64,000 bases of DNA. Origin: Larkinella rosea. Lineage in GTDB: Bacteria > Bacteroidota > Bacteroidia > Cytophagales > Spirosomataceae. The notes beneath the pieces were generated by a model. The model saw only the letters and a program-made list of their open reading frames with translations. It was not told where the DNA came from and ran no database searches. The DNA is taken from contig NZ_RQJO01000008.1 in NCBI RefSeq assembly GCF_003858635.1, positions 1 to 64,000 of the forward strand, in the 5' to 3' direction. Shown one piece after another: positions 2,163 through 22,715 of this stretch. Position 1 is the first letter of the stretch; the number at the start of each line of letters is the position of its first letter. The translations under genes and the position numbers were made by a program.

Positions 2163-3467
2163 ATGAAGTTTTACAGTACGAATAATCCTTCACTCCGGGT
2201 TTCGATGGAGGAAGCTTTGCTCCGCAGTTTGCCCGCAGACCGGGGCCTTTACATGCCGGAAACGATTCCTTTTATGGGAGCTGATTTCTTTAATTCCATT
2301 TCGGACGGTTCACTGTCAGATATTGGTTTTCAGGTTAGTAAGGCACTTTTCAAGGATTCGATTCCGTCCGATAAACTGGAAGAACTGGTCCATCACGCCT
2401 TTCCGTTCGACACGCCGGTTGTGACGCTGGAAGATGGAAAAACGCACGTTCTGGAGTTGTTTCATGGTCCGTCGCTGGCTTTTAAAGACGTCGGCGCCCG
2501 GTATATGGCAGCCATGATGGGCTATTATCTGGAAAAATCGAATCAGGAAGTTCACATTCTGGTGGCCACCTCCGGTGATACGGGTGGCGCCGTTGCGATG
2601 GGCTTTCTGGGCGTTCCCGGTATTAAAGTAACGATTCTGTACCCAAGCGGTCGGGTGAGCGATTTGCAGGAAAAACAGTTGACAACACTGGGTCAGAATA
2701 TTACGGCCATTGAAGTAGACGGTTCGTTTGACGATTGTCAGGCATTGGTAAAAACCGCCTTTACCGATAGTGAGTTGAATCGACAGTTTAGGTTGGCTTC
2801 GGCTAATTCGATCAATATTTTCCGGCTGATTCCGCAAAGTTTTTACTACGCCCGGGCCTATGGACAAGTGAAACAGTTCGGAAAACCGGTGGTTTTTTCG
2901 ACGCCCAGCGGCAATTTCGGTAATTTGAGTGCGGGTGCGCTGGCTTATAAAATGGGGTTGCCGGTTCAGCAATTTATTGCTTCGACAAACCTGAATTACG
3001 TAGTTCCGAAGTATCTGGAAACCGGTATTTACGAACCCAAACCGTCGGTTGAAACGATCTCGAACGCGATGGATGTGGGCAGTCCGAGCAATTTTGTGCG
3101 GTTAACTCACCTGTTTGACGACCATTATGAAACGTTAAAACAAATTTTAACCGGCTATTTCTTCAATGATGAACAGACCAAACAGGCTATGGAAGCTGTT
3201 TATCAACAATTTGACTACGTCATGTGCCCGCACACGGCAGTCGGTTATTTAGGGTTGACAAGTTATCAACAATCCAACCCGGGTGTATGTGGAATAACGC
3301 TGGCCACCGCGCATCCGGCGAAGTTTAAAGAACTGGTGGAGTCAGTTATCCACAAACCGGTGGAAATTCCGGCGGCTTTGGAAGAGCTGATGAATCGTCC
3401 GAAACACAGTTTCAAGATGAAAGCCGACTTCGACGAATTCAAGGAATTTCTTTTGCAAACGGCCTGA
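2163..3467 (+). CDS. thrC: threonine synthase
   Basis: PLP enzyme that converts O-phosphohomoserine to threonine. The 434-residue protein carries the PLP lysine (Lys108) in HGPSLAFKDVGAR and the phosphate-binding SGDTGGA loop, followed by the SGNFGN motif, all typical of the longer threonine synthases of Gram-negative bacteria. An ACTCTTTG stretch four bases upstream of the ATG resembles a -7 element, which would imply almost no 5' leader; this is weak. The gene ends at a 13-bp hairpin shared with the convergent TPR gene. No thrA or thrB lies next to it in this window. Confidence 0.95.
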   Translation: MKFYSTNNPSLRVSMEEALLRSLPADRGLYMPETIPFMGADFFNSISDGSLSDIGFQVSKALFKDSIPSDKLEELVHHAFPFDTPVVTLEDGKTHVLELFHGPSLAFKDVGARYMAAMMGYYLEKSNQEVHILVATSGDTGGAVAMGFLGVPGIKVTILYPSGRVSDLQEKQLTTLGQNITAIEVDGSFDDCQALVKTAFTDSELNRQFRLASANSINIFRLIPQSFYYARAYGQVKQFGKPVVFSTPSGNFGNLSAGALAYKMGLPVQQFIASTNLNYVVPKYLETGIYEPKPSVETISNAMDVGSPSNFVRLTHLFDDHYETLKQILTGYFFNDEQTKQAMEAVYQQFDYVMCPHTAVGYLGLTSYQQSNPGVCGITLATAHPAKFKELVESVIHKPVEIPAALEELMNRPKHSFKMKADFDEFKEFLLQTA

Positions 3468-3505: not shown

Positions 3506-5314
3506 TTAATTGATTGTATCTCCCCGCAAGGCCCGAAACCGCTTTCGGGCATCGGCACCGAAAATACTTCCCGGATATTTTTGCAAAAGCTGGTTGTAGA
3601 GTTCCATCGCCTTGGGTTTATCCTGCTTGTTTTCCTCATACGTTTTTGCGGTTAGAAAAAGCGCGTCGTCTCCCAGTACATCTTCGCCGTAATTGGCCGA
3701 GATTTTTTCCAAATCCTGCAAGGCTTCGTCAATTTTGTTTTGCTTGATGAGCGTATTAGCCCGCAACCACAGAATATTGTCGGCCAGGCTGTGATCCTTG
3801 TATTTGGCGTACATCTGGTTGAGAGCCAAAGCGGCCGAATCTACTTTGTTTTGAAATAACATCAATTCAATGGACGCAAACTCCTTCATGGCAGTTTCGT
3901 TGCTGTCCGAATCCATACCGGTATTATCCATAATGAGCAAACTAAGCGCCCCGGCATCGTTGGCAATCTCTCGACTGGTGGCCTGTTTCAAAATATCCAG
4001 TACCTCTTTCGACAACTCAAATTCGCCTTTGTAATAGTGTAGCCGGGCATTTCGCAGTTTCGCTTCATAGCCCAGCAGTTCTTCTTTCTGCGATTTTTCA
4101 ACCTGCGAATACAACAAAGTTGCTTCCCAGGGTTCCCCTTTCAGGAGATAGATATCGCCCATATCGAGTTTGCAGCGGTCGATGAACGCTTTTTCGTTTT
4201 TACTGATTTCGGTGGCCAGTTGCAGAATTGTTATCGCCGTATCCTTTTCATCCAGGTAAAAAGCGTACAGATTGGCCGTGCTCCGCAGCGCTTCGAGGGT
4301 ACGGTTATTTTTGCCCAGTTCCTGAAACATCTTCTGGTAATCGGCGATCAGCTTCCGGATTTCGGAATTATCCACCGGATAGGTGTTCTTGACCTGTTCC
4401 TCCCGCGCCTTGATCACCAGCCGACGGGCGAAGGCGTAGAGCTGCCCCTGCGGATACTCCTTCGCTACATACTCAAACATGGCCGCAGCGTTCTTGTAAT
4501 CTTTATTCTGGAGTGCAACCGCACCGAGATCATAAACGCGCACACCGGTCAATTTTAAGCGTTTGTCGAGGGCTCGTTCCTGAATGAATGCTTTATAGAA
4601 CTCTTTCTTTTGCGTTAAGTACCAAACGAGCATTTCAGTATAAAACATCTCGTTCGGATTTTCCTGCACTTTCTTGTACAAAACCGTCTCGAGCATTTTC
4701 TGATCGGCGTCTTTCAGATTGTCCTGCAACATGGCCTGCACGTTGTCCCGGTTCCCCGGTATCAGACCCCAATGCAGCAATTCGTCGATCATGTTTTCTT
4801 TCTGACCCACGGCGCCGTACAAGCGCGCCAGTTCGCCGGCGTAGGCTAGCGGCTCCCGGCTTTGCTCCCGGCCTTTCTTCAGCACCTTAATCGCCCAGGT
4901 TGCTTTGAGTTTTTCGGCAAAGTCCTGCGCCAGTTCGGGCAAACCGTTTACGTTGCTGCTGGCAACCGACATAGCCTTGTTAAAATAAACGTCTGCTTTA
5001 GCCGAGTCATTCCGGCTTTCTTCCAGAACACCGGCTTGCAGGAGCACGTACGGATTTTTATCGTCCGATTTGATCAGCCGTCGAATCACTTTTTCAGCGT
5101 CCGCGATTTTATTCAATTTTACCGCACTCTCCACATATTGACTGATGAGTTGTTTACTGGCACCGGTTTTCATCAGTTTCTGATAAATCGTGTACGCTTT
5201 TTCAAATTCGCCTTTTTTGAAATATTCATCCGCGAGATCCGGTCCTTCCTGGGCAAATCCATTTACCAAGCCGACTACCAGCAGCATAATCAGTACTCCC
5301 GTTATCTTCTTCAT
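3506..5314 (-). CDS. exported tetratricopeptide-repeat protein
   Basis: 602 residues starting with a signal peptide (hydrophobic core about residues 5-20, ending GFAQ). The rest is almost entirely helical with TPR-like repeats, including YFKKGEFEKAYTIYQKLM near the N-terminus and a last repeat with AMELYNQLLQKYPGSIFG near the C-terminus. Such proteins usually scaffold periplasmic or outer-membrane complexes; no partner can be read from the neighbours. It is transcribed alone, and its 5' end faces the DnaA-box cluster. No catalytic domain is visible, so a specific role is not assigned. Confidence 0.85.
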   Translation of the reverse strand: MKKITGVLIMLLVVGLVNGFAQEGPDLADEYFKKGEFEKAYTIYQKLMKTGASKQLISQYVESAVKLNKIADAEKVIRRLIKSDDKNPYVLLQAGVLEESRNDSAKADVYFNKAMSVASSNVNGLPELAQDFAEKLKATWAIKVLKKGREQSREPLAYAGELARLYGAVGQKENMIDELLHWGLIPGNRDNVQAMLQDNLKDADQKMLETVLYKKVQENPNEMFYTEMLVWYLTQKKEFYKAFIQERALDKRLKLTGVRVYDLGAVALQNKDYKNAAAMFEYVAKEYPQGQLYAFARRLVIKAREEQVKNTYPVDNSEIRKLIADYQKMFQELGKNNRTLEALRSTANLYAFYLDEKDTAITILQLATEISKNEKAFIDRCKLDMGDIYLLKGEPWEATLLYSQVEKSQKEELLGYEAKLRNARLHYYKGEFELSKEVLDILKQATSREIANDAGALSLLIMDNTGMDSDSNETAMKEFASIELMLFQNKVDSAALALNQMYAKYKDHSLADNILWLRANTLIKQNKIDEALQDLEKISANYGEDVLGDDALFLTAKTYEENKQDKPKAMELYNQLLQKYPGSIFGADARKRFRALRGDTIN

Positions 5315-5363
5315 TTTTCTTTTTTATTAATTTAAAGAATAAAGGATTTAAAGGATTGTTGTC

Positions 5364-5707
5364 TGTGGATATGTGGACAAGTTCTTTATGCACATTTATT
5401 CTTGAACGCTGTGGATAAGAAAATCAGGTTATCCACACTTGAATTTCATTTATCCACATGTAACTATCTGAAAATCAATTCAAATTTTGTTTATCCACAA
5501 TTGTTGTTTTAAACTACCACCGGATTTAAGCACATTTCCACAAGATAGGTGTTAAACATTTCCACGTGTTAATGGTTCGTAGAATAAGTTGTGGAAAATA
5601 TCGGAGTTGTACACTATCCACAGTCGACAAATTTTTTATCCACAGCGTTACCTGGGTTGTTCACAGCAACATTTGTACCCTTTCACATTTTGTCCACACT
5701 ATCCACA
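5364..5707. other. DnaA-box cluster, candidate oriC
   Basis: Gene-free AT-rich stretch (5315-5766) with five perfect DnaA boxes TTATCCACA: 5410-5418 (minus), 5429-5437, 5450-5458, 5491-5499 and 5636-5644 (plus). Six more have one mismatch: 5364-5372, 5372-5380 and 5590-5598 (minus), 5614-5622, 5690-5698 and 5699-5707 (plus). Further weak copies lie at 5534, 5558 and 5723. Fewer than 0.01 perfect boxes would be expected by chance here. The rRNA operon points away from it and mnmG (gidA), a common origin neighbour, is 2.6 kb away. A DnaA-titration site is the main alternative. Confidence 0.75.
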
Positions 5708-5766
5708 CGGTTTTCCACTTACTTTTCCACGGATTATTTGTGTTTTTTTAATTTCACATTGACCTT

Positions 5767-7374
5767 TCAAAAGGCGTCTAAATCTTCCGATATATCGAAG
5801 TTTGCTTTGATGGGTATAATCCCTTTATTTCGGGTGAAGAAATAGATGGGTTCGGGCAGGCGGTTTTCGGTCAGATTACCACTGTCCCACCGGCCATTGC
5901 CATTCTCATCGATGATAACGCGGAGCCGGTAGCGACCCGGTTTTATGTTAACGAAACGATAGGTCGGGTTGTTTGACTGCTTATCAACGAGCTTGAAATT
6001 CTCATCCAATAATTCCACAATAAACTGTTTTGCGGTTGTATTAACCTTGCCCGTCAGCACCCCATATTTTTCCGGATCACGGATAAAGTAGTTCAGTTCC
6101 GCGGCCGCCGTCGAGTCGTTCAAGACACTAATAAATGCTCCTCTTCCCAACCGAAGCACGACGCTATTTTTGGCAGTTGTTGTCTTTGTCAGAACGAAGC
6201 GGGTTTGATTGTTTTCCCACCGGTAGTCCTGCGTCGTTAAGGGGATGCGGTTTGTCGTGTCGCTGAAAAGCCGGAGCGAATCGGTGGTGATGTGTTTCAT
6301 TGGTTTCGAAAACTGAAGCACCACTTCCATCACCCGATCGACGTCGCCGTTGTCGGCGGGTTTGGCCGAAACGGTAACGGGCTCCGGTGTTTCACGGCGC
6401 GTGGGTGTTCGGAACTTAAATTTCTGAGTAAGCTCGGTTTTATTTTTTAAGGAATCCGTCACCGTAATCTTCAGTCGAACCGTATCCGTCGTTGCGCGGG
6501 CATTAAAAAAGGTGAGTTCCGTTGGCGTTCTAAAATAAGACGGAAGCGTATCCTGCGGATTGGTAAACTGCACCTGGTAGCTTTCTATACCTCTGTCAAA
6601 CACATATGTGTACGTGTTGACGAGCTGCTGCGTCCTCACGGAGCGTGGAGGAGTGTTGTAAAACGAAAATAATTGCAATTTTATCGTATCATTATTGGCT
6701 TTTAGATCAAGATCGCCTTTCAATAATGCCATTTTTTCGGTATTCGGATTTAGAATATAATTTAAATTTTTATCATCAAATGCGAAGATTTTATAGCGAC
6801 CATCCTTCACATTCTCCAACAAGAACACGCCGGAGGTATCGGTCCGTGTGAAATAGTACGGTTTTGTTTTGGTTGGCGTCAATGTGTCATTGAGTACGTA
6901 TAGACCGACCAGGGTGTTCAAGGTGGGCTGCCCGGTTTGCATATCCGTCACCTTCCCTCCTACCCGAATGGAGTCAATGGTACTGCCGGTACTGAAAACC
7001 AGTTTAAGACTCAAGGCCGGATTATTCTCCGTTACGTCTTTTACGGCGTCCGTAAAGTTGAACGTGTAGGTTGTATTCTCTTTGAACGGTTTATCGAATA
7101 CCAGTCGTAAACTCGTGGGCTTTATTTTAGGTTTAAACGGCGATTCCGGTTCGGGTGTGATCAGCACTTTCTGGTTAGCATTTTCCACCCGGATGTATTC
7201 ATTGAAGAAAAGTTCAATCGATTTTTCGTTGAAATTCTTCTGCTTATTAATGGGCGTACTTTTCACCAAAACCGGTGCCAGCGTGTCTTTTTTACCGCCA
7301 ATTGGAGCCGCGTATTGGGAACAGGAATTTAGAAAAACGCAGATAATGGCGAATAGTACGAGTGCTTGTTTCAT
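5767..7374 (-). CDS. lipoprotein with Ig-like (SbsA/Big_5-type) domain
   Basis: 535 residues with a lipoprotein signal peptide; the lipobox FLNSC puts the lipidated cysteine at residue 18. Residues about 30-115 match the bacterial Ig-like domain seen in SbsA-type proteins (APVLVKSTP...ENTTYTFNFTDAVKD). A second beta-rich module sits near 330-430, and the C-terminus resembles a carboxypeptidase-regulatory fold (GRYRLRVIIDENGNGRWDSG). The family is widespread in Bacteroidota and thought to be surface or periplasmic; no enzymatic function is known to me. The stop codon abuts the DnaA-box region. Separated from the upstream methyltransferase gene by a terminator. Confidence 0.85.
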   Translation of the reverse strand: MKQALVLFAIICVFLNSCSQYAAPIGGKKDTLAPVLVKSTPINKQKNFNEKSIELFFNEYIRVENANQKVLITPEPESPFKPKIKPTSLRLVFDKPFKENTTYTFNFTDAVKDVTENNPALSLKLVFSTGSTIDSIRVGGKVTDMQTGQPTLNTLVGLYVLNDTLTPTKTKPYYFTRTDTSGVFLLENVKDGRYKIFAFDDKNLNYILNPNTEKMALLKGDLDLKANNDTIKLQLFSFYNTPPRSVRTQQLVNTYTYVFDRGIESYQVQFTNPQDTLPSYFRTPTELTFFNARATTDTVRLKITVTDSLKNKTELTQKFKFRTPTRRETPEPVTVSAKPADNGDVDRVMEVVLQFSKPMKHITTDSLRLFSDTTNRIPLTTQDYRWENNQTRFVLTKTTTAKNSVVLRLGRGAFISVLNDSTAAAELNYFIRDPEKYGVLTGKVNTTAKQFIVELLDENFKLVDKQSNNPTYRFVNIKPGRYRLRVIIDENGNGRWDSGNLTENRLPEPIYFFTRNKGIIPIKANFDISEDLDAF

Positions 7375-7390
7375 TAGTTGGCATAAAAAA

Positions 7391-7415
7391 CCCTGAATAG
7401 TTGGGCTATTCAGGG
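7391..7415 (-). terminator. intrinsic terminator after the methyltransferase gene
   Basis: Perfect 10-bp stem, CCCTGAATAG (7391-7400) with CTATTCAGGG (7406-7415), 5-base loop. On the minus strand it is followed directly by TTTTTTATG, a proper U-tract. It lies just after the stop codon at 7432. Confidence 0.85.
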
Positions 7416-7431
7416 CGTGAGAATTAATTTA

Positions 7432-8324
7432 TTATTGTGCCTGAGCGACGTAAATCAAGCTTGAATAATTACCCCCATCCTGATAAGCTGCCCAATTAGA
7501 ACGAATTCCATTCCAAAAACTTTCAAGATAAGCGGGCTTTCCATCTCGGTTTTTCGTGCTGAGCATGTTCACATAGAACGCGTCGAACAGCATCGGCCGC
7601 TGTTCTTTCAACTCAAAACCGTATCTTTTCAGCAGTGTTTTCATGACGTCCGGAGAAAAGTGATAGAGATGTCGGGGCACATCATACGCGGCCCAGAATG
7701 GTTTATAATGCTGCGCATCCCACGAATGATAGTTAGGAACCGCGATCACTAAATGCCCATTTTGTCGACTGTGACTACGGATCCACTCCAGGGTTTCCGA
7801 TAATTCATGGACGTGTTCCAATACGTGCCACATCGTAATCACATCGTAGGGCTGATCATCATTCAGTTCAAAAATCGACTTTTTCAAGGGTACACTAGTC
7901 CGCTGAAAAGCTTGCTGTCGCGTGTTGGCATCCGGCTCAGTACCCGTTATTTTCCAACCCGCTTCCTGACTGGCTTCCAGAAAATAACCAGAACCGCAGC
8001 CAATATCCAGCAATTCTCCTTTCCGGGGTGAAAGACTGGTAATCAGTTTTACCTTCTGCTGCAGCGTAATTTTCCGGACAGAATGGTACAGTTGGCTGAT
8101 GATTCCCTGACGTGTATCACTGTGTGAAATGTAGTCTTCCGATTGATAATACTGCCCGATCTCCGCTTCTACCGGCCGCGGATTTGTGGCTTTAAAACCG
8201 CACTGCTCACAACTCTGAATCGTAAATTCCTTCTTCGAAACCAGGAAATCGGTACACGTCATCCAGTTTGAAAACGACTGATTTCCACAAACCGGGCACT
8301 CTCTAAGGTGTTCAACCGTCATCA

Positions 8325-8325
<1 letters not shown>
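7432..8325 (-). CDS. zinc-ribbon class I SAM-dependent methyltransferase
   Basis: 297 residues. The N-terminus has a zinc-ribbon-like pair of CxxC motifs (Cys10/13 and Cys39/42), followed by a Rossmann methyltransferase with motif I LLDIGCGSGYF at about 105-115, an acidic residue in TGTEPD, and the post-motif WHVLEHVHE. This architecture is common in Methyltransf_23-type enzymes acting on quinones, sugars or nucleotide-linked substrates; the substrate cannot be read here. The start codon overlaps the mnmG stop by one base (TAATG), so the two genes are translationally coupled. ATG is doubled at the start (MM), leaving a 3-base ambiguity. Confidence 0.85.
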
Positions 8326-10187
<1,862 letters not shown>

Positions 10188-10218
10188 AATGCGTGAAATT
10201 TTACAAAGTTTGAAAAAA

Positions 10219-10235
10219 TGTTCCACGTGGAAACA
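10219..10235. other. parS-like centromere site
   Basis: TGTTCCACGTGGAAACA contains the CACGTG core and a full left half of the ParB-binding parS consensus TGTTnCACGTGnAACA; the right half has one extra A, so 14 of 16 positions match the symmetric form. TTCCACGTGGAA alone is a perfect 12-bp palindrome. It lies in the mnmG leader, 4.5 kb from the DnaA-box cluster. parS sites usually cluster near oriC. A regulator binding an E-box-like palindrome is the alternative. Confidence 0.55.
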
Positions 10236-10350
10236 TTTCACAGCGCGCAACAGAAAAAACGCAAATACAAAAATAGGAAATAAAGTACGCGTAAAAGATG
10301 AGGATTGTTAAAATCAACGTAACTACAGACGAAAAGATTCAAAATAAAAA

Positions 10351-10368
10351 AAGGGGCCGAAGCCCCTT
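10351..10368 (-). terminator. intrinsic terminator after the DUF4175 gene
   Basis: On the minus strand AAGGGGC-TTCG-GCCCCTT is followed by TTTTTATTTTG: a 7-bp GC-rich stem with a stable UUCG tetraloop and a U-tract, three bases after the stop codon at 10372. Confidence 0.92.
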
Positions 10369-10371
10369 AAC

Positions 10372-13300
10372 TTACTTTAACTTTTTGAGATACGAATCAA
10401 CTTCGCGTTTGTAAAATGGTGAAAAATCAGGTGGAACAGAACGCAACAATTCAACTTGCTTTTGTTTGTCCTTCACCAATTGTTCGTACTGTGGTGGTGG
10501 TTTTCGCATCACCGGTTTCGCCTGTTCTGCTTTCCGTTGCAAATCTTCTTCCTGTTCCTTAATGGCTTTTTCGGATTCCAGCAAGCGAATCAGCATCTCC
10601 TGTTGGCGTTTAATGGTGTTCTGGGTGACCCGTTTATTGACCAGATCTGTTTCCGTCTCATCCATCTTATTCATAATATCATTCATTTCACCGCCCAATT
10701 TTTTGCCCAATTCCGTACCTTTTTGAGCATCCTGAAGTTCTTTCAGCATCCGGCGCATCATGGCTTGCTCGGCCGCTAGTCGGGAAAGTTCTTCGGACAT
10801 ACCACGTCCACCTTTGCCTCCCTGCCCCTCTTTCATGAGTTTTTGCATCCGCTCATTCAATTGCTTCTGCATTTCGCCCATCGACATCGCCTTGCCTTTG
10901 CCTTTTTTCTTGCCCTTACTTCCTTTGCCCGAAGCCGACATCTGGCTCATCTGCTGTTCCTGCATTTGCTTGAACACGTCACTCAGCATCAGGGCCAGGT
11001 TATTGATAGACGTCATGGCAAATTGCTGCTTCGATGTAGCAACATTTAATCGACGCTCGCGAATGTATTTGACGCTTTCGTCCATGTAGCCCTTCATATT
11101 ATTGAGCTCGCGAGTTACAAATGTCTGGATTTGAAGCACCCGGTTTGCCAACGCATACAGGCTGTCTTCGATGATTTTAGCATCATCCTGAAGCTTTAAT
11201 TGATCCTGAGCGAGCTTGACAAAGCGCGGATCCTGCAACGAAACCGCCTTGAAATCCTTCATGACGCGCTCCTGATCGAATGACAGTTGAATCAGATTCT
11301 CAAGTATGTCGCGCAGATCATCCATGTTTTCCTGGGACTCTTCCATCTCCGCCGACTGCTGTTGTTGCTCCAGTTGCTCACTGAGCTTCTTCATTTGCTT
11401 GGCGGCATTCTTCTGAGATTTCGAAGCTTTGTCGTTTTGCTTCTGATCCAGCTGCTTCTGGCTTTCCTGTTGCTCATTACTGATTTCCTGCTGAAGATCT
11501 TCGTGCGTATCTTGTTTCTCCGCATTTTTCATCTCCTCGGCCATCTTTTCAATGTCCTTCAAATCCTCACGCGTCTTTTCAAACTCTTTGTTAAGTTCTT
11601 CCTGCTTTTTGCTCAGCTCACCTTTCTCGTCTTTTTTGGCGTTGTCATCTTTCTTGGAGTCGCTGTTCTGATCCTTCTTATCGTCCTTTTCGTCCTTCTT
11701 GGATTGCTGATTTTCATCCTTCTTCGACTGCGCGTTTTCGTCTTTTTTCGACTTTGCATCCTCATCCTTTTTGGATTTAGCATCGTCTTTTTTCGGCTGC
11801 GCCTTATCGTCTTTGTCTTTCTGAGCTTCCTGCTTCTCGGTTTCGTTCGCTAATTTCTCTTGTTTTTCGGCTTGCTTTTCGAGGTCTTTGATGGCGTTTT
11901 CCATCTTCTGTTCCATCTGAAGCTGCTTGAAAAGTTCCAGCGCGCGCTCCAATTCCTTCTCCAGATTCTTCTCTTTATTCTTCAGCCGATCGAGCATGTC
12001 AATCATTTTATCGTCCTGCTTTTGCTCCAGCATCTTCTTCAATTCTTCGTAGAGCTTCTGCGTTTCAGGATCCATCAGCTCGTTCATCAGCTTTTGCAAT
12101 TGCTCGAATTTCTGGAGCATTTCCGGATTCTGATTGTTAAACCGCTGCTGACGTTCGTTGCTGGTTTTGTTCTGTTCCTGCAATTCTTTCAGCTCCTGCA
12201 TTAATTCTTCCCGCTTTTTCAGCAGATCTTCCGCCTGTTTCTTATCCTGGAAATCCAGGTTCTTCTTCGTTTGAAGGCGGTTTTCCAGCGTGTTCAGATC
12301 CTTTTTGAGTTGCTGGGCTTTCGTTAGTGTTTTGCTGATCTGGTTCTCGGTTTTCTGCGACGAACGTTCGGCTTCTTCCGCCAGCTTGGCCTGATCGGGA
12401 ACGGCAAACTGAGCAAAGGTCGAACGGGCACTTTTGAAGCCGTTAATAACATCGTTATCCCAAACCTGAACGAAATACTCGAGCCGATCGCCGGGTTGCA
12501 TTTTCAGGCTGTCGAGCCCCCATTGGTAATAAAAATTCTGGGTAGCCGCTGAGCGGTTGAACGGAATGGCGCGGGTCAGGAATTTATCCGGCGCATCCTG
12601 GCCCGCCCGAATCACTTTGTACTGGACTTTCAGGTTGGAAAAACCGTAGTCGTCGGTGATCGTTCCGCCCAGCATGACGTAGTTATAAAAGGTCGTATCC
12701 TTAAAGTTTTCCAGCGAAACCTGCGGGAATTTATCATTGACGACGTTCAACGTATACTGAATATTATCGCGGCTGGCAGCCACTTTGTTCTTCAGCGAAA
12801 CCGAATAATTCGACGATTTTTTTACTACCCGCGAAAATTCAAACTCGTCGGACGACTGTTTTTCGGCTACCAAACCGCGCGGTTCGCCCGCAAACCGAAT
12901 CAAAACCGAATCGGTATTGGCCGCCGAAAATCGCCAGGTAACCTGCGTTCCCTCCGGTACCAGCAAGTTGCCGACGTTCGAAAGTTGTTCAGACGGTTTG
13001 TTCAAATAGCCCGGATAAACCAAACTAACGTCAAAGGAAAGCAAACCCGGCCGATCCAGAACGACCAGTTCATAACTGGGCGATGCAAATCCGACGGATT
13101 CAAACCGGAATGGAATGTTCCGCTGAACATTATCGAAGGTATAGGAGAAGGTTCCTTTGCCGTCGTTGTTGAGCTTAAACCGGGTGTTATTCGAAACCAG
13201 ATAAACGTCCTGCGGCAGCGTATTTCCTTTCAGTTGGAGTTCGAGCGTATAGTCCTCATTCCGGAAAGCCTTCAGATTTTTATTTCGCAACTGAAACTGA

Positions 13301-13893
13301 AATGGGGCTTCTTCCGCAAATTCCTGATCGTAACTGATGATTCGCTTCGAGGTGCTGGTCAGAAAAGCCGGATACAACAACAGCAAACCACCAATGATAA
13401 AAGCCGGGATAACGGCGTATTTCACAAACCGGCGGTTTTGGTTGATCTGGATCGCGTCGGCAAACCGTACAATCAGGAGTTGTTTCGACCGCTGGTTGAT
13501 GCTGGCTTCGAGCAGATCGCTTTGCTGGCGGGTGAGCGCGCGCAATTGGAGCGTGTTCAGCAGCTTGTCCCCTACTTCCGGAAAAAACCGCCCGATCTGT
13601 TGCGCAGCTTCTTCGTTGGTCAGCGATTTGCCAATGCCGTACAGATGCACCAGTGGGTTAATCACCCAGTAGTATAAAGCCGTTAGCATAACCGCCAGAG
13701 AACCAAAAAACAAAATGCCCCGGACGGGTGAGCTAAAACGGCCAAAAAATTCAGCCGTGTTCATCAGCAAATAGACCGACAACGAAAAGGCAATGAAAAA
13801 AATGGCGCCTTTAGCCACCTGATTAATGTAAAACTTCTTTCGGTATTCTTCAATACGCAGCAGCAGCGTTTGAATCGATTCTTGCATCTGCAT
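10372..13893 (-). CDS. DUF4175 family membrane-anchored coiled-coil protein
   Basis: 1173 residues. Three hydrophobic segments near residues 29-44, 57-78 and 159-178 anchor the N-terminus in the inner membrane. A beta-rich periplasmic region (about 190-510) follows, then a very long helical part rich in Lys, Glu and Gln. This matches DUF4175, a Bacteroidota/Alphaproteobacteria family of unknown function often found near mnmG. Around residues 700-760 it carries tandem copies of SKKDE-type units (DNA about 11640-11800), and near 960-1000 a Gly/Lys/Met-rich patch (KGSKGKKKGKGKAMSMG). Starts MQM, so either of two Met codons could serve. It sits upstream of mnmG on the same strand but is separated from it by a strong terminator. 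Confidence 0.9.
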   Translation of the reverse strand: MQMQESIQTLLLRIEEYRKKFYINQVAKGAIFFIAFSLSVYLLMNTAEFFGRFSSPVRGILFFGSLAVMLTALYYWVINPLVHLYGIGKSLTNEEAAQQIGRFFPEVGDKLLNTLQLRALTRQQSDLLEASINQRSKQLLIVRFADAIQINQNRRFVKYAVIPAFIIGGLLLLYPAFLTSTSKRIISYDQEFAEEAPFQFQLRNKNLKAFRNEDYTLELQLKGNTLPQDVYLVSNNTRFKLNNDGKGTFSYTFDNVQRNIPFRFESVGFASPSYELVVLDRPGLLSFDVSLVYPGYLNKPSEQLSNVGNLLVPEGTQVTWRFSAANTDSVLIRFAGEPRGLVAEKQSSDEFEFSRVVKKSSNYSVSLKNKVAASRDNIQYTLNVVNDKFPQVSLENFKDTTFYNYVMLGGTITDDYGFSNLKVQYKVIRAGQDAPDKFLTRAIPFNRSAATQNFYYQWGLDSLKMQPGDRLEYFVQVWDNDVINGFKSARSTFAQFAVPDQAKLAEEAERSSQKTENQISKTLTKAQQLKKDLNTLENRLQTKKNLDFQDKKQAEDLLKKREELMQELKELQEQNKTSNERQQRFNNQNPEMLQKFEQLQKLMNELMDPETQKLYEELKKMLEQKQDDKMIDMLDRLKNKEKNLEKELERALELFKQLQMEQKMENAIKDLEKQAEKQEKLANETEKQEAQKDKDDKAQPKKDDAKSKKDEDAKSKKDENAQSKKDENQQSKKDEKDDKKDQNSDSKKDDNAKKDEKGELSKKQEELNKEFEKTREDLKDIEKMAEEMKNAEKQDTHEDLQQEISNEQQESQKQLDQKQNDKASKSQKNAAKQMKKLSEQLEQQQQSAEMEESQENMDDLRDILENLIQLSFDQERVMKDFKAVSLQDPRFVKLAQDQLKLQDDAKIIEDSLYALANRVLQIQTFVTRELNNMKGYMDESVKYIRERRLNVATSKQQFAMTSINNLALMLSDVFKQMQEQQMSQMSASGKGSKGKKKGKGKAMSMGEMQKQLNERMQKLMKEGQGGKGGRGMSEELSRLAAEQAMMRRMLKELQDAQKGTELGKKLGGEMNDIMNKMDETETDLVNKRVTQNTIKRQQEMLIRLLESEKAIKEQEEDLQRKAEQAKPVMRKPPPQYEQLVKDKQKQVELLRSVPPDFSPFYKREVDSYLKKLK
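11640..11800 (-). repeat. tandem SKKDE-coding repeat inside the DUF4175 gene
   Basis: About six imperfect units of 24-33 bases coding SKKDEDA, SKKDENAQ, SKKDENQQ and SKKDEKDD, ending in SKKDD. Low-complexity coding repeat likely to vary in copy number between strains by slippage; the frame is kept because each unit is a multiple of three. Confidence 0.75.
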
Positions 13894-14001
13894 CGGTCTG
13901 TTCGTAAAGGGTTAATACTGCTTCGATAAACGCAATTCGAGTATCCTAAAATGAAGATAATCAATTGATCACTAACTTCCTTATGCTAACGAAAAAGATC
14001 G

Positions 14002-14388
14002 TTAGACAATTTTATCCGCTGGCCCGGACCCGCGGTTTTCCGGCTCGTCGAGGTATTCGTTGAAATACGTAATGACGTGGAGTTTCAGAAAATTCTCCTG
14101 CGTCAGCAAATCGATGTACGGTACTTTCTGCACCAGCTTCCAGTGGGGCCAACCGTCCTGATCAGTGCCGACCAATTCATAATAACCGGACAAACTCAGC
14201 ACTTTGCAAATGGCAATGTGCATCAAATCCTGTTTCTGTTCTTTCGTGAAAATCTGTGTTCCACGACCCAATTCCTGCACGCCAATCAAAAACAGGACGC
14301 TGTTCAAATCGGCCGGGCGTTTGCCGACGGTTTTTTCCAGATAATCCAGCACCTGCTCCCACTCCTGTTCTATTTCCTGTGTAATCAT
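14002..14388 (-). CDS. conserved small cytoplasmic protein of unknown function
   Basis: 128 residues, no signal peptide or membrane segment, mostly helical by composition, with conserved-looking stretches LFLIGVQELGRG and EQKQDLMHIAICKVLS. It resembles a small family I recall as common in Bacteroidota genomes, but I cannot attach a function. It lies 108 bases upstream of the DUF4175 start on the same strand and may be co-transcribed with it, and is divergent from comF. Confidence 0.7.
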   Translation of the reverse strand: MITQEIEQEWEQVLDYLEKTVGKRPADLNSVLFLIGVQELGRGTQIFTKEQKQDLMHIAICKVLSLSGYYELVGTDQDGWPHWKLVQKVPYIDLLTQENFLKLHVITYFNEYLDEPENRGSGPADKIV

Positions 14389-14520
14389 ATTTCGTAATAA
14401 TTGTGAGTTTTTTACTCGTTTTTATGACTTTTTACGACCTCATTCGTCACATAGTACAGAATAAAAGAGGAGCGCAAAAACCGGTTTGTTGCATTTAAAC
14501 GTTTTCGGCTAACTAAGTTC

Positions 14521-15237
14521 GTGAAAATCATCGGAAAACTAATTGTAAGCGGCTTTCAGGACCTGCTAAATCTGTTCTACCCGAATCCGTGTTTGTTGTG
14601 TCAGAACACGTTGCAAAGCCAGGAAGAATTGGTCTGCACGACGTGTCGGCTTCAATTACCCGAAACCGGTCAGCACCGGGGCGAAGCGCTGGTGTCGGGA
14701 CAAATCAAGTTTGCCGGAAAAATTCCAGTGGAATTTGTGTATGCCTACTTGTATTTCAACAAGAAAGGAAAAACGCAAAAACTGATTCACGCGTTGAAAT
14801 ACCGCGGCCAGAAAGAAGTCGGCAGTTTGCTGGGACGCTGGTACGGTTTTCAGTTAAAAACCGAAATTCAATTACAGGAGCAAATCGATCTGATTGTGGG
14901 CGTGCCGTTGCATCCTGCCAAATTGCGGCAACGGGGCTACAACCAGAGCGACTGGTTTGCCAAAGGATTGTCGGAAATGCTGGAAGTCCCGTGGAGCGAC
15001 AAGGCGTTGATCCGGAATCAGTACACAATCAGTCAAACCGGAAAAGACCGGATTGAGCGCTGGCAGAACGTCAGCCACGTCTTTACCGTGAGCGAGCCCG
15101 ATTTAGTGGCAAATAAGCGGATTTTGCTCGTAGATGACGTCCTGACCACCGGAGCTACATTGGAGGCCTGTACGGCGACTTTATTGGCCTCCAACTGCCA
15201 ATCGGTTGGGATTATAACAATAGCGGCCACCCGATAG
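14521..15237 (+). CDS. comF: ComF family phosphoribosyltransferase-like protein
   Basis: 238 residues, GTG start. The N-terminus has a four-cysteine zinc site (Cys24, 27, 39, 42 in PNPCLLCQN and CTTCRL) and the C-terminus the type I phosphoribosyltransferase PRPP loop ILLVDDVLTTGAT (201-213). ComF proteins take part in natural DNA uptake, moving single-stranded DNA across the inner membrane with a helicase partner; in many non-competent bacteria the role is less clear. It is a single-gene unit, divergent from the 14.0 kb gene, and its stop codon lies within a 9-bp hairpin. Confidence 0.88.
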   Translation: MKIIGKLIVSGFQDLLNLFYPNPCLLCQNTLQSQEELVCTTCRLQLPETGQHRGEALVSGQIKFAGKIPVEFVYAYLYFNKKGKTQKLIHALKYRGQKEVGSLLGRWYGFQLKTEIQLQEQIDLIVGVPLHPAKLRQRGYNQSDWFAKGLSEMLEVPWSDKALIRNQYTISQTGKDRIERWQNVSHVFTVSEPDLVANKRILLVDDVLTTGATLEACTATLLASNCQSVGIITIAATR

Positions 15238-15250
15238 TCGAGTGGCCGCT
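15222..15250. terminator. hairpin between convergent comF and gldJ
   Basis: AGCGGCCAC (15222-15230) and GTGGCCGCT (15242-15250) form a perfect 9-bp stem with an 11-base loop that contains the comF stop codon. There is no clear U-tract on either side, so termination strength is uncertain. Confidence 0.55.
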
Positions 15251-15273
15251 GTAAGGGTCCAGGAAGTCAGGTC

Positions 15274-16539
15274 TTATTTGTTCCGTCCTCCGGCGATCAT
15301 TGCACAACGGAAACCGATCGTTGCCGTTGCCGAATCCTGCGCCATGAACCGACGGGTTCCCGGAGCCAGCCAGTAGGCTACGTCAGCCCACGAACCGCCT
15401 TTGTAAACCCGTAATTTATCGTTAATGAGCGAATTGCCATTTTTCGTGTCGTAGTTCTTCTCTTCATCCTGATACCCATCCCGACGCAGCGGGTTGAGGT
15501 CGTTCATGTCCTGATACGACAACGGACGATAGACGTCATACACCCATTCGTTCACGTTTCCGGCCATGTTGTATAGACCGAAATCGTTGGGCGGATACGT
15601 ATAGATTTCAGCCGTGATGATAGCCGCATCGTTCGATTTTCCGGCAATACCGGCGTAATCACCCCGACCGCGTTTGAAGTTGGCCAGCATCTGACCCTGT
15701 TTCCGGCCTTTCTTGGCATTCCGCACCGACGAACCATCCCAGGGATAAATTCGCTGATTCGACTGGTTTTCGTCGATGTATTGTGTACCGATCATCGCTT
15801 TGGAAGCATATTCCCATTCAGCTTCCGACGGCAGACGATAATTGGGCAACACATTTCCGCTTTCCATCGACGCCGTTGTCTGCGAATTTTTGGCAACCGC
15901 CTGTTCCGCTACCGGAGCGGCTTCTTCTTTTTTCTTGCGTTTCAGCGAGAAGCCTTTTTTCTTCTTGCCGGACGAACTGCCTTTCTGAGCCAGGTTGGCA
16001 TTGACCGCATCGGTCCGCCAGGTCGAATAATCGACGGCCTGCTCCCACGACACCCCAACCACCGGGTAATACCGGAAGCCCGGGAAACGCAGGTACTGCG
16101 TTACGTAAGGATCATTGTACGAAAGCGGATTTTTCCAGACGTTCGTGTCGGGCAACGCGCGGGTGTAAATTTCTTCCGACGAATCGCGCTGAATCGCGTC
16201 GAGGTATTCCAGGTAGTGAATGTTCGCAATTTCGGTTTCGTCCATGTAGAACGACTGGATACTAACGGTACGCTCGCGGTTATCGCGCGAGTTCATCACG
16301 TCCTCTTCCAGCGCGCCCATCGTAAAACGGCCGCCTTCAATGAACACCAGGTTCGGACCCGCCGACTGACCTCTGTACTTCGCTACCTGAAAACCATTCT
16401 CCTTGTTGTAGTTGATACCGGTGGCCGTACTTTCTTTTCCCGGCTTCACGCTGGTTGGGTGCTTGGGCTTACACGCGCCTAAAACTGCGGCAAAAGCCAG
16501 CAGGTAGACCATCGAGCGTAACGGTTGTTTTCGATTCAT
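15274..16539 (-). CDS. gldJ: gliding-motility/type IX secretion lipoprotein GldJ
   Basis: 421-residue lipoprotein (lipobox LGAC, Cys23) with a formylglycine-generating-enzyme (sulfatase-modifying) fold from about residue 60: FIEGGRFTMG, QSFYMDETEI, PVVGVSWEQAV, YRLPSEAEWEYA and a final RCAMI. The combination SFYMDETE, ALPDTNVWKN and YPVVGVSWEQAVDYSTWRTD matches GldJ rather than GldK. GldJ is an outer-membrane part of the gliding/T9SS machinery and stabilises GldK. A Lys-rich insertion at residues 187-228 (GKKKKGFSLKRKKKEE) interrupts the fold. It is downstream of mfd on the same strand. The T9SS-type protein at 63.3 kb could be a client. Confidence 0.88.
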   Translation of the reverse strand: MNRKQPLRSMVYLLAFAAVLGACKPKHPTSVKPGKESTATGINYNKENGFQVAKYRGQSAGPNLVFIEGGRFTMGALEEDVMNSRDNRERTVSIQSFYMDETEIANIHYLEYLDAIQRDSSEEIYTRALPDTNVWKNPLSYNDPYVTQYLRFPGFRYYPVVGVSWEQAVDYSTWRTDAVNANLAQKGSSSGKKKKGFSLKRKKKEEAAPVAEQAVAKNSQTTASMESGNVLPNYRLPSEAEWEYASKAMIGTQYIDENQSNQRIYPWDGSSVRNAKKGRKQGQMLANFKRGRGDYAGIAGKSNDAAIITAEIYTYPPNDFGLYNMAGNVNEWVYDVYRPLSYQDMNDLNPLRRDGYQDEEKNYDTKNGNSLINDKLRVYKGGSWADVAYWLAPGTRRFMAQDSATATIGFRCAMIAGGRNK

Positions 16540-16605
16540 TGTGATTAGGTAACTAATAGAAGTTCAAAATTACAGTATGTCAGGCAAACTTTCACGATTA
16601 AGAAC

Positions 16606-16628
16606 AACCGGAAAGGCAATTCCCGGTT
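16606..16628 (-). terminator. weak hairpin after mfd
   Basis: AACCGG (16606-16611) and CCGGTT (16623-16628) form a 6-bp stem directly after the mfd stop codon; on the minus strand it is followed by GTTCTTAATC, a poor U-tract. It could partly end transcription before gldJ. Confidence 0.4.
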
Positions 16629-16629
16629 A

Positions 16630-19600
16630 TTATTCCACCATCTGACTCAACACATCGTCCATCTGATCGACTGTATTTACGTCTCGTTGCGTAAAAATCA
16701 GTTTTCCTTTAAGGTCTTTTAATGAGCAGGTTGCCGAATTTTTCTTGACGTAATCAATTACTTTGCCAAACTGCCCGGAGTTGAAGAAAACGTCATTCCC
16801 AGAAGAAACGAAGGTTCCCTTCATGATATTATTTTTTAGTGTCAATTTTTCGAGCTGTAAACGCTCGGCTTTCCAGCGAACCGTCACTAATTTGATCAGG
16901 TTTTCGACTTCTTCCGGCATCGATCCAAACCGGTCGGTCACCGAATGTTGAAAACTTTCTAATTCCTTCTGGTTTTGGATGTTATCCAACTGATTATACA
17001 ACGACAAACGCTCCGAGATATTGGCTACGTATTTTTCGGGAATCAATACCTGTAAATCCGTCTCGATGAGTGTGTCCGGGAGCAGTGTTTTCAGGCTTTC
17101 CTCATTCGGCATGAAGAGGTTTTTGAACTCGGTTTCTTTCAGTTCCTGAACGGCTTCGTCCAGAATTTTGTGGTACATCTCAAAACCCAGGTCGTTGACA
17201 AAACCGCTTTGTTCGGCTCCCAGCAGGTTTCCCGCGCCCCGAATGTCAAGGTCACGCATCGCAATCTTGAATCCTTCACCCAGTTCCGAGAAGTCTTCCA
17301 GCGTTTGCAGCCGTTTGCGGGCGTCGGTTGTGATGGCCGAAATCGGGGGCGTCATTAAATAACAGAACGCTTTTTTGTTGGAACGCCCCACCCGCCCGCG
17401 CATCTGGTGAAGATCCGACAGACCAAACATGTGTGCCTGATTGATGATAATGGTGTTGGCGTTCGGAATATCCAAACCGGATTCGATGATGTTGGTCGAA
17501 ACCAATACGTCGGATTCTCCTTCGATAAACCGAGTCATGACGCGTTCCAGCCGATCGCCTTCCATCTGGCCGTGGGCCACCGACACCCGGGCGTCGGGCA
17601 CCAGCCGCATAATCAGATTCGCAATTGACTCGATGTCACTCACGCGGTTGTGGACAAAAAATACCTGGCCACCCCGCCGGACTTCGTAGCTCACGGCATC
17701 GCGAATGACGGCTTCACTGAACGTATGAACTTCGGTGGTTACCGGTTGTCGGTTGGCCGGTGGCGTGGCGATGACGGAAAGATCGCGGGCACCCATCAGG
17801 GAAAAATGCAGCGTTCGTGGGATGGGCGTTGCGGTTAAGGTCAGAACATCGACATCGACCCGCATTTCCTTCAGCCGATCTTTCGTTTTAACGCCAAATT
17901 TTTGTTCCTCGTCGATGATCAGCAGACCTAAATCCTTGAATTTGATGTCTTTATTGACAATACGGTGCGTTCCGATCAGAATACCGGTTTCGCCGGAAGC
18001 CACCCGTTTCAACGTTTCCTTGATCTGAGCGGCCGTTCGAAACCGGTTGATGTATTCGATTTTGACGGGAAAGTCGGCCAGCCGCTCCTTAAAGGTATTG
18101 TGGTGTTGCATTGCCAGGATGGTCGTTGGCACCAAAACCGCCACCTGTTTATTGTCCGTAACCGCTTTAAAAGCCGCCCGAATGGCCACCTCCGTCTTCC
18201 CAAAACCGACATCTCCGCACACCAGCCGGTCCATCGGGTGCGACTGTTCCATGTCCACTTTTACGTCGGCGGTTGCCTTGGCCTGATCGGGCGTGTCTTC
18301 GTAAATGAACGACGATTCGAGTTCGGCCTGGAGAAAACTATCGGGTGAAAACGCAAAACCGGGTGCCTGCCGCCGTTTGGCGTAGAGGGCAATCAGTTCT
18401 TTCGCAATGTCTTTGACCTGCTTCTTGACCCGCGATTTTTTCAGTTCCCACTCTTGCGAACCCAGTTTGCTCATCACCGGTGGCGTTCCTTCCTTGCCGG
18501 TATACTTCGCAATTTTGTGCAAACTGTGGATGCTGACGAGCAGAATATCGTTGTCACGGTAGATCAGCCGGATGGCTTCCTGTTCGCGTCCACCCACATC
18601 GACTTTTTCCAGACCCGCAAACCGCCCGATGCCGTAATCGACATGCGTGACATAATCGCCGGCTTGCAGGGTTTTCAGTTCGCGCAGGGTCAGGGCTTTC
18701 GATTTGGAGAATTTATCCCGAACGCGGTATTTGTAATAGCGGTCAAAAATCTGGTGATCGGTATAACAAACGACTTTCGTCTGCTCATCAATGAATCCTT
18801 CCTTCAGCGAAATGCCCAGCGTCTGGAATTTCAGGAACGGATCGAGCTCTTCAAAAATGGTTTTTAGCCGTTCCTGCTGTTTGTAAGACTCGGCCGCAAT
18901 GATGTTGGTATAGCCCTTCGACTGGTTTTCGGCCAGATTTTCGACCAACCGCTTGAAATCTTTGTTGAACGACGGCTGCGCCTTAGACGTGTAATTCAGT
19001 TTCTCGTCAACTTTAAAATAAAACCGACGGCCAAATTCAACGGTCCGAAAGGGCTTGATTTGATTCAAAAAACCGCGCCGGGTTTCAAACAACTTGTCCG
19101 GGTCGGAAACAATCTGAATGGCACCTTTCCCTCCTACCAGCGTGGCCAGACTTTCTTCGGCTTTTTCGAAACTCTTCTCAACGATTTCGAGCGTCAGTTC
19201 CACGTCTTTAAACCAGAGCGTGGTATTGTCCGGAAAAAACTCCAGAAACGGCTCCCGACTTTCGTGCGTCAGTTTGTTTTCGATGTTGGGAATGATGCTG
19301 ATGCGTTCCACCGGGTCGGTCGAGAGCTGGCTTTCGGGATTGAATAACCGAATGCTCTCGATTTCATCTCCGAACAACTCGATGCGGTACGGAAACTCAC
19401 TGGCAAACGAAAACACGTCGATAATTCCCCCGCGAATGGAGAATTGGCCAGCTTCATACACAAAGTCGGTTTTCTCGAAATCGTAACTATTCAGGAGTTC
19501 GTTGATGAAATTGGCGTCCAGTTTATCACCGGTTTGCACCGACAGCGTATTGGCCCGCAACGACCGTTTATTGATTACTTTTTCAGATAAAGCTTCCGGA

Positions 19601-19983
19601 TACGTAACCACAATGACATTGCCCTTCGCGTCCTGATTCAGTTTATTCAGCACTTCCGCCCGCATCAGCACGTTGGCATTCTCGATTTCTTCGTACTGAT
19701 ACGGTTTTTTATACGACATCGGGAAAAACAGCACATCCTCTCCGAGCAGATTTTGCAGGTCGTTGTAAAAGAAAGATGCTTCTTCGCGGTCGCTTAAAAT
19801 AAACAGAAAAGTAGCCGGGTTCATGCGGTAAACCGCAGCCGCCAGAACGGCATCCAGACTACCCGTAATGCCTTTCAATTGAACGCGGGAAGAGTCGGCG
19901 GTGTGCGGCTGGCGAAACTGTTCACCAATGATTTTGATGAAACTATCTTCGGTATATAAGGTAATTAAATCGGCTACTTTCAT
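16630..19983 (-). CDS. mfd: transcription-repair coupling factor Mfd
   Basis: Mfd removes RNA polymerase stalled at DNA lesions and recruits UvrA. The 1117-residue protein has the UvrB-like N-terminal part (DFEKTDFVYEAGQFSIRGGI), the RNA-polymerase-binding domain (LQAGDYVTHVDYGIGRF), the SF2 translocase with Walker A GDVGFGKTE, DEEQKFGVK (motif II), TATPIPRTLH and QMRGRVGRS, and the C-terminal TRCF domain. The start is set at the Met before KVADLITLY; a longer reading adds 19 unrelated residues. It follows barstar on the same strand across a small terminator. Confidence 0.96.
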   Translation of the reverse strand: MKVADLITLYTEDSFIKIIGEQFRQPHTADSSRVQLKGITGSLDAVLAAAVYRMNPATFLFILSDREEASFFYNDLQNLLGEDVLFFPMSYKKPYQYEEIENANVLMRAEVLNKLNQDAKGNVIVVTYPEALSEKVINKRSLRANTLSVQTGDKLDANFINELLNSYDFEKTDFVYEAGQFSIRGGIIDVFSFASEFPYRIELFGDEIESIRLFNPESQLSTDPVERISIIPNIENKLTHESREPFLEFFPDNTTLWFKDVELTLEIVEKSFEKAEESLATLVGGKGAIQIVSDPDKLFETRRGFLNQIKPFRTVEFGRRFYFKVDEKLNYTSKAQPSFNKDFKRLVENLAENQSKGYTNIIAAESYKQQERLKTIFEELDPFLKFQTLGISLKEGFIDEQTKVVCYTDHQIFDRYYKYRVRDKFSKSKALTLRELKTLQAGDYVTHVDYGIGRFAGLEKVDVGGREQEAIRLIYRDNDILLVSIHSLHKIAKYTGKEGTPPVMSKLGSQEWELKKSRVKKQVKDIAKELIALYAKRRQAPGFAFSPDSFLQAELESSFIYEDTPDQAKATADVKVDMEQSHPMDRLVCGDVGFGKTEVAIRAAFKAVTDNKQVAVLVPTTILAMQHHNTFKERLADFPVKIEYINRFRTAAQIKETLKRVASGETGILIGTHRIVNKDIKFKDLGLLIIDEEQKFGVKTKDRLKEMRVDVDVLTLTATPIPRTLHFSLMGARDLSVIATPPANRQPVTTEVHTFSEAVIRDAVSYEVRRGGQVFFVHNRVSDIESIANLIMRLVPDARVSVAHGQMEGDRLERVMTRFIEGESDVLVSTNIIESGLDIPNANTIIINQAHMFGLSDLHQMRGRVGRSNKKAFCYLMTPPISAITTDARKRLQTLEDFSELGEGFKIAMRDLDIRGAGNLLGAEQSGFVNDLGFEMYHKILDEAVQELKETEFKNLFMPNEESLKTLLPDTLIETDLQVLIPEKYVANISERLSLYNQLDNIQNQKELESFQHSVTDRFGSMPEEVENLIKLVTVRWKAERLQLEKLTLKNNIMKGTFVSSGNDVFFNSGQFGKVIDYVKKNSATCSLKDLKGKLIFTQRDVNTVDQMDDVLSQMVE

Positions 19984-20033
19984 AGAATCGTAAAATACCA
20001 AAAGCCGCAGGGATCGAAATCTCCATGCGGCAA

Positions 20034-20064
20034 ACAGCAAAAAAATAACCGTTTGTAAGCGGTT
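20034..20064 (-). terminator. terminator after the barstar gene
   Basis: On the minus strand AACCG-CTTACAAA-CGGTT is followed by ATTTTTTTG. The stem is only 5 bp but the U-tract is good. It lies 13 bases after the barstar stop codon and before the mfd start. Confidence 0.55.
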
Positions 20065-20076
20065 TTTGTTGCAACA

Positions 20077-20514
20077 TTAAATGGCGCGATCGTAGGCAAA
20101 ATCCTCTTTATCGAACAGAGCAATCAACGTATCGGCGGGCTGGAACAGGATCACTAACTGGCGGGGTGTTACGCCCTCTTCTTCCTCATCGACCCACTTC
20201 CAATCTTCGGCGGCTACGTCCAGTATATTCAATAATTCGACTTTCTTGGCTTCACTTTTTTCCTGCGACAGAAACGCATCCGAATGCGTGATATACACCG
20301 CAATTTTATCGTCGTCGAGCCAATCCAGGTCGTTCAGCGCTTCATCAAGCGACTCCAGGTTGAACTCGAAATGATCGGGAAACCGGAGTTCGCGGGCGAT
20401 TTGCTCGTAAAATTGTTTCAGGGTTTGCGCCTTTTGGCCGTCGATTCGGGCCATTCGAAAATCAGCGTACGGTTTCAGGTCCGAATCCGACTGAACGAAT
20501 CTAAAATTTGCCAT
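20077..20514 (-). CDS. barstar-family (ribonuclease inhibitor) protein, orphan
   Basis: 145 residues. Residues about 23-66 match barstar, the small inhibitor that plugs barnase-type ribonucleases: RIDGQKAQTLKQFYEQIA, then FPDHFEFNLESLDEAL and NDLDWL. The C-terminal half is acidic (WVDEEEEGVTP), as expected for a protein that binds a basic RNase. No ribonuclease toxin gene is near, so this is an orphan copy: it may protect against toxins delivered by other cells or inhibit a remote partner. It lies 31 bases after the muconolactone-isomerase-like gene and may be the last gene of that operon. Confidence 0.82.
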   Translation of the reverse strand: MANFRFVQSDSDLKPYADFRMARIDGQKAQTLKQFYEQIARELRFPDHFEFNLESLDEALNDLDWLDDDKIAVYITHSDAFLSQEKSEAKKVELLNILDVAAEDWKWVDEEEEGVTPRQLVILFQPADTLIALFDKEDFAYDRAI

Positions 20515-20545
20515 GAAATAGCGGAAAATGAGACGGCAAAATTAG

Positions 20546-20842: not shown

Positions 20843-20855
20843 GGCGTGGTCTTTT

Positions 20856-21521: not shown

Positions 21522-21540
21522 GGCGGCTTTTAAAGATTAT

Positions 21541-21587
21541 TCCGGTTTTGTCATGCCAATTCAGACAACTGAAATGACAAAACCGGA
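21541..21587. repeat. 14-bp inverted repeat between mhqO-like and mhqD-like genes
   Basis: TCCGGTTTTGTCAT (21541-21554) and its exact complement ATGACAAAACCGGA (21574-21587) flank a 19-base loop in the intercistronic gap. No U-tract follows on the minus strand (AATAATCTTT). Could be an attenuator or an mRNA stabiliser. It contains the CGGTTTT word seen in many other intergenic palindromes here. Confidence 0.7.
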
Positions 21588-21600
21588 CTGGAAAAGGCAC

Positions 21601-22705: not shown

Positions 22706-22715
22706 CATCGCTAAT

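Follow-up and report, generated by a model that had tools for sequence, protein, structure and literature searches.

The window analysed here is a 64,000-nucleotide stretch of the Larkinella rosea genome that opens contig C11 of the assembly. The contig starts inside a 16S rRNA gene, whose 3' end is cut off by the contig end and whose remainder occupies the minus strand at positions 1-123, pointing away from the features described below, as the earlier note on this DNA had said. No tRNA genes were found in the window. Between the ORFs at 3506-5314 and 5767-7374 lies a gap of 452 bp (5315-5766) with a G+C content of 33%, the gene-free, AT-rich setting that the same note had described, and this gap holds a dense array of DnaA boxes that was proposed as a candidate chromosomal replication origin. 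On recounting, the 344 bp of the array (5364-5707) contain 12 TTATCCACA boxes, five perfect and seven with one mismatch; the five perfect boxes of the note were recovered and its six one-mismatch boxes became seven, a difference that leaves the odds for an origin unchanged. The features of the locus are as follows.

3506..5314, minus strand: gene for a TPR protein, with a leader that overlaps the predicted unwinding region
5315..5363, minus strand: predicted unwinding region, a short spacer followed by A+T-rich sequence as far as the TPR start codon (from position and composition only)
5364..5707, no strand: DnaA-box array, the predicted DnaA assembly region of oriC, conserved in nine Larkinella genomes
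5364..5380, minus strand: two overlapping boxes in tandem (TTGTCCACA/ATATCCACA), oriented towards the A+T-rich flank
5364 and 5372, both minus strand: the one-mismatch DnaA boxes of the overlapping tandem pair
5386, plus strand: one-mismatch DnaA box
5410..5418, minus strand: perfect DnaA box
5429..5437, plus strand: perfect DnaA box
5450..5458, plus strand: perfect DnaA box
5491..5499, plus strand: perfect DnaA box
5528..5545, plus strand: non-canonical conserved element with a TTTCCAC core (nine Larkinella genomes; chosen visually in the alignment)
5553..5568, plus strand: second TTTCCAC element, conserved (by eye from the alignment)
5590..5598, minus strand: one-mismatch DnaA box TTTTCCACA
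5614, plus strand: one-mismatch DnaA box
5636..5644, plus strand: perfect DnaA box
5690..5707, plus strand: abutting one-mismatch DnaA boxes at 5690 and 5699
5711..5731, plus strand: two more TTTTCCAC elements, each differing from the box at two positions, on the Big_5-gene side
5767..7374, minus strand: gene for a Big_5/DUF2141-domain protein, adjoining the array
8325..10187, minus strand: mnmG (gidA; TIGR00136, 838.7 bits), start codon placed by alignment at the ATG at 10187
10219..10235, no strand: parS-like palindrome TGTTCCACGTGGAAACA directly upstream of mnmG (ATG 10187), the same in 9/9 Larkinella sequences

Read from the array, the gene order is the Big_5/DUF2141 gene, a methyltransferase gene and mnmG, the end of which lies at the 2.6 kb given by the earlier note. 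The closest mnmG relatives place the genome in Larkinella, the protein being 84-97% identical to those of seven Larkinella loci, and the Big_5 gene is present in 56 of the 59 genomes searched, its own genome counted. The note had also remarked, as a point against an origin, that the genes to the right of the array face it. By length, 94% of the long ORFs in 5767-20000 are on the minus strand, so that they do run towards the array; the mostly head-on stretch of long ORFs covers about 17 kb (5767-22542) and is the same in the collinear stretch of the complete congener genome G001.

A concentration of boxes of this kind is far beyond what base composition would produce. The note's chance expectation of fewer than 0.01 perfect boxes in the gap holds across models, with 0.0025 expected from the dinucleotides of the window, 0.0035 from the genome-wide rate and a mean of 0.0095 (maximum two) in 2000 shuffles of the gap itself. 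The 8.17-Mb assembly contains 63 perfect boxes in total. No second group of at least three within 400 bp occurs in it, and elsewhere a single pair of perfect boxes no more than 400 bp apart was found, on contig C13, with no third box. No second candidate origin of such strength showed among perfect boxes; the genome-wide count covers this class of box, and an origin of weaker boxes elsewhere stays compatible with it. Chance clustering of the boxes was ruled out by the expected counts, the gap shuffles and the recurrence of the array in relatives. An origin linked to dnaA was likewise ruled out: dnaA is on contig C12, apart from the array, with only one perfect box, inside the gene.

In 72 of 80 related loci the strongest box cluster falls 3.4-5.2 kb beyond the start of the mnmG match, against 7.3 expected by position, the interval having been chosen after the positions of box clusters in relatives had been inspected. 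The cluster score is at least 4 in 70 of those 72 loci and in 0/80 reversed-sequence controls; in the other eight loci the best cluster is not at the mnmG-linked place. The strength of the array varies: Larkinella, Dyadobacter and Runella have strong ones, whereas Rufibacter, Parachryseolinea and genome G028 are among those with weak ones. G028 has just four one-mismatch boxes by the Big_5 gene; a small group that includes two perfect boxes lies about 6 kb further on. Genome G012 has its Big_5 gene at 4.32 Mb, far from the box array; in this genome an array of two perfect and eight one-mismatch boxes (about 350 bp) adjoins mnmG (6.6256-6.6275 Mb), and four further perfect boxes lie in the next 2 kb or so.

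In an alignment of 5358-5734 from nine Larkinella genomes only one of 377 columns is gapped, so the spacing of the boxes is kept as well as the boxes themselves. Invariant columns make up 77/107 of the box positions as against 33/209 of the spacers, and pairwise identity is 0.88 in the boxes versus 0.55 in the spacers. In the extra elements, mostly of the TTTCCAC type and chosen by eye from the same alignment, 45/61 columns are invariant, and the element at 5528..5545 is a possible low-affinity DnaA site.

The boxes at 5364 and 5372, which share one base, form the edge of the array on the side of the TPR gene. Over the 60 nt that follow this pair the A+T content is 80%, and the A+T-rich stretch at which the pair points ends at the TPR start codon. 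A check for a nearby AT-rich unwinding element, as the earlier note had advised, therefore finds by composition a flank of the expected kind adjoining the pair. The pair and the stretch together suggest an unwinding module, of which the pair is the probable anchor. With up to two mismatches and on the mnmG strand, the pair occurs in 58/80 loci, always 3.5-5.2 kb away from where the mnmG match starts. It is on the opposite strand in four loci, absent from 19 of the 77 long enough to include its place and found in 0/80 reversed-sequence controls. It was first spotted in some of the same loci that were later counted.

In many relatives the pair is followed by YTAAT, which is present within the next 16 nt in 30/51 non-Larkinella loci (500 shuffles: mean 7.3, maximum 15), a motif picked after those sequences had been read. 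Neither this count nor that of the pair is made up of independent observations, because the rows are related species. The motif fits the 3'-GAT-5' trio of the basal unwinding system, the trio most frequently found beside a DnaA box (PMC8287927), and Larkinella shares with that system the tandem boxes, the short spacer and the A+T-rich stretch. It differs in that the Larkinella stretch lacks YTAAT: the window has GACAACAATCCTTTAAATCC at the place where the motif stands in relatives, and other Larkinella are similar. A formal rule of at least three NAN DnaA-trios within 16 nt gave 26/51 non-Larkinella loci, not above shuffles (mean 22.6, maximum 32); at least three trios were counted, without a shuffle control, in 6/7 Larkinella loci.

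The parS-like site reported 4.5 kb from the array is present at 10219-10235, with the caveat that it exceeds the canonical 16-mer by one base and has two mismatches to it. On the mnmG strand it reads TGTTTCCACGTGGAACA and is identical in 9/9 Larkinella sequences. Because of the extra base, a canonical parS search allowing up to three mismatches missed it, and it was found via its CACGTG core. With TGTTNCACGTGNAACA, which we take to be the parS consensus, matches of at most one mismatch fall within -200 to +100 of the mnmG match start in 56/80 loci, often in pairs (perfect in 48/80), and there are four in the other 1.6 Mb of these loci. Two other places in the L. rosea assembly match the 16-mer better, with one mismatch each; one of them, at 21.1 kb on C13, has the same 16 letters as a site in G001 that lies 43 kb beyond the cluster. 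A ParB gene is on contig C10.

Cumulative GC skew, one of the checks proposed in the earlier note, was run in relatives. In G001 (6.56 Mb), where the cluster is at 2.042 Mb, 39 of 40 samples of 20 kb were readable: 18/18 between 2.30 and 5.12 Mb are positive, 21/21 on the other arm are negative, and all 39 fit a skew switch near the cluster. Sampling 1.974-2.094 Mb every 2 kb puts the raw cumulative minimum near 2.018 Mb, 24 kb from the cluster. A gene-strand-corrected fit at fourfold sites, whose grid spacing is about 110 kb, accepts only 1.86-1.97 Mb, a distance of 70-180 kb. Since both are offset, the agreement between skew and cluster in G001 is one within 24-180 kb and is inexact. The window and G001 are collinear over window positions 2.7-29.2 kb, and the 29.2-kb end coincides with the raw skew minimum, which may for that reason reflect a rearrangement.

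In G033, with its cluster at 2.786 Mb, 11/11 samples before the cluster are negative and 8/9 from the cluster on are positive; the corrected fit is broad, accepting grid points between 1.49 and 2.98 Mb, and the grid point closest to the cluster fails while both its neighbours pass. The cumulative minimum of G028 is in the 4.10-4.12 Mb sample and its cluster locus at 4.16 Mb; here the corrected fit is best at 4.21 Mb and accepts 4.12-4.21 Mb together with nine other grid points at 0.09-1.43 Mb. In the distant relative G040 raw skew disagrees, its switch lying at 2.27-2.70 Mb, 1.0-1.4 Mb from the cluster (3.67 Mb). After correction for gene strand the best origin position in G040 is 3.74 Mb, with 3.29-3.74 Mb accepted. 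All corrected fits exclude samples that are more than half masked.

Within the L. rosea assembly itself, the first 35 kb of C13 are collinear with a G001 stretch that starts 23 kb beyond the cluster on its other side, and C13 begins with a short repeat, presumably rRNA, of which the G001 origin region has two copies; C13 is the probable other flank of the origin. Read outward, with the contig order taken from the collinearity with G001, its skew is +0.036 over 80 kb (5/6 samples positive). On C11 the outward skew is +0.016 in 180 kb of samples beyond the window and +0.009 with the window included (8/13 pieces positive), four of the five pieces up to 0.41 Mb being zero or negative, and the support that C11 skew gives to an origin is weak.

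The strand marker AAGGAGGG, chosen in G001 samples, is unpolarised on C11 (14 plus and 11 minus of 25) and lends no support on this contig, although it separates two arms in G012. Among the places listed there (100 of 109), in intervals set after the places had been viewed, it stands at 28 plus and 11 minus over 0.8-3.0 Mb and at 3 plus and 30 minus over 3.0-5.2 Mb; it is mixed on both sides of the predicted origin, at 6 to 7 over 0-0.8 Mb and 9 to 6 over 5.2-6.11 Mb. Its switch of polarity at about 3.0 Mb places the terminus of G012 there and the predicted origin at about 6.5 of 7.03 Mb, and the mnmG-side array (6.62 Mb) is roughly opposite the switch.

Taken together, the rarity of the boxes, the place kept beside mnmG and the nearness to the skew switch of a congener make it very probable that the array is the chromosomal replication origin (oriC) of Larkinella rosea. 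The reading put forward in the earlier note is thus upheld by the only perfect-box cluster of this kind in the assembly, by its recurrence in 72/80 loci and by the G001 skew. A model for how such an origin might work follows, in which the binding of DnaA and of ParB, the exact site of opening and initiation itself are all inferred. According to this model, DnaA, whose gene lies elsewhere, would occupy both the strong boxes and the weaker sites of the TTTCCAC type. Starting at the tandem pair (5364-5380), it would spread over the A+T-rich flank (5315-5363). The duplex would open within the TPR leader, with replication proceeding bidirectionally, while ParB, bound to the parS-like site upstream of mnmG, would mark the origin region and segregate it.

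Clusters of DnaA boxes also mark titration loci of the datA type, and the array could in principle be such a DnaA-titrating or inactivating locus, with the true origin elsewhere. Smaller box groups do occur in relatives: G001 has a second group of four perfect boxes at 2010135-2010244, 32 kb from its cluster and, by eye, adjoining a symporter-like gene, and G033 has three perfect boxes exactly 21 bp apart at about 2.758 Mb, 28 kb from its cluster and apparently within coding sequence (again by eye). Against titration stand the absence of any other group of at least three perfect boxes within 400 bp in the L. rosea assembly, which speaks for perfect boxes only, the position of the array near the skew switch and the A+T-rich flank that adjoins the conserved tandem pair; although datA-type loci are alike in their clustered boxes, the proximity to the skew switch and the unwinding flank argue here for an origin, and we regard titration as very unlikely.

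Since the array is directly upstream of the TPR start codon, it might instead be a DnaA-controlled promoter of that gene and no origin at all. Twelve boxes at fixed spacing in 344 bp would be more than a promoter needs, and no sigma-70-like match was found on the TPR strand upstream of the start codon in 5315-6000, although promoters of this phylum may deviate from that consensus; this alternative is more improbable still. The G001 group near 2.010 Mb offers a further reading, in which the main Larkinella origin is of that type and the present cluster is auxiliary. The raw skew minimum of G001 falls between the two groups and its corrected fit leans towards the 2.010-Mb side, but a counterpart of that perfect-box group is missing from the assembly that contains the window, and it is the present cluster that recurs beside mnmG, which leaves this reading with a probability close to negligible. 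The identification of the array as oriC is accordingly the one that we retain.

The separation of oriC from dnaA is said to be common in Bacteroidetes, and chromosome 1 of Prevotella intermedia resembles the present case in having an oriC with a box cluster at the skew transition, far from dnaA (PMC4755523). Among the genes often found near primary origins, the ancestral origin gene cluster includes gidA (mnmG), as here; dnaA is on the same list, yet in L. rosea it is on another contig (PMC2099444). In the Flavobacteriaceae an oriC at or beside mnmG has been predicted from Ori-Finder and GC skew for Mariniflexile litorale, expressly not at dnaA (PMC11278836, where a figure legend swaps ori and ter relative to the text), and for Algorimicrobium (PMC12843772). 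These predictions are like ours in position, and differ in concerning another order and in the lack, within the text compared, of a box map or an unwinding module. Because mnmG-side origins had already been predicted in related groups, the origin itself is a sound but ordinary find, and its order-wide anatomy is the more interesting side. No study of a Larkinella origin was among the matches listed in the open-licence PMC literature, and narrow searches of open-licence literature listed no description of the tandem pair or of the parS position in Cytophagales.

We tentatively put forward, as a possibility that is on balance unlikely, an origin plan common to the Cytophagales, in which a directional pair keeps a fixed distance to mnmG, the TPR leader carries YTAAT trios and parS sits at the start of mnmG. 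Larkinella would depart from this plan in having a rigid 377-bp lattice and extra TTTCCAC sites in place of the YTAAT trios. The papers compared do not describe such a plan; if it is true, the opening step may differ in Larkinella, with the trios dropped and the lattice in use. The conserved pair and parS make the evolution of Cytophagales origins testable by sequence, and a defined 452-bp candidate origin could be of use in Larkinella for replicating plasmids, for the orientation of assemblies and when growth rates are estimated from read depth.

Cytophaga hutchinsonii presumably belongs to the same order, the Cytophagales. The use of oriC plasmids in C. hutchinsonii, recorded in a strain table (PMC5288383), suggests a working origin in that order.

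Some minor features were noted in passing. A perfect box and two boxes with one mismatch lie within the 3' end of thrC (window 3200-3354), at a spacing that recurs in G001. A TPP riboswitch lies at window 22713-22809, directly upstream of an 804-aa ORF (22863-25277). A palindrome of two facing perfect boxes six bases apart, at C13:248360-248383 and also present in G001 and G033, could represent either a terminator hairpin or a site under DnaA control.
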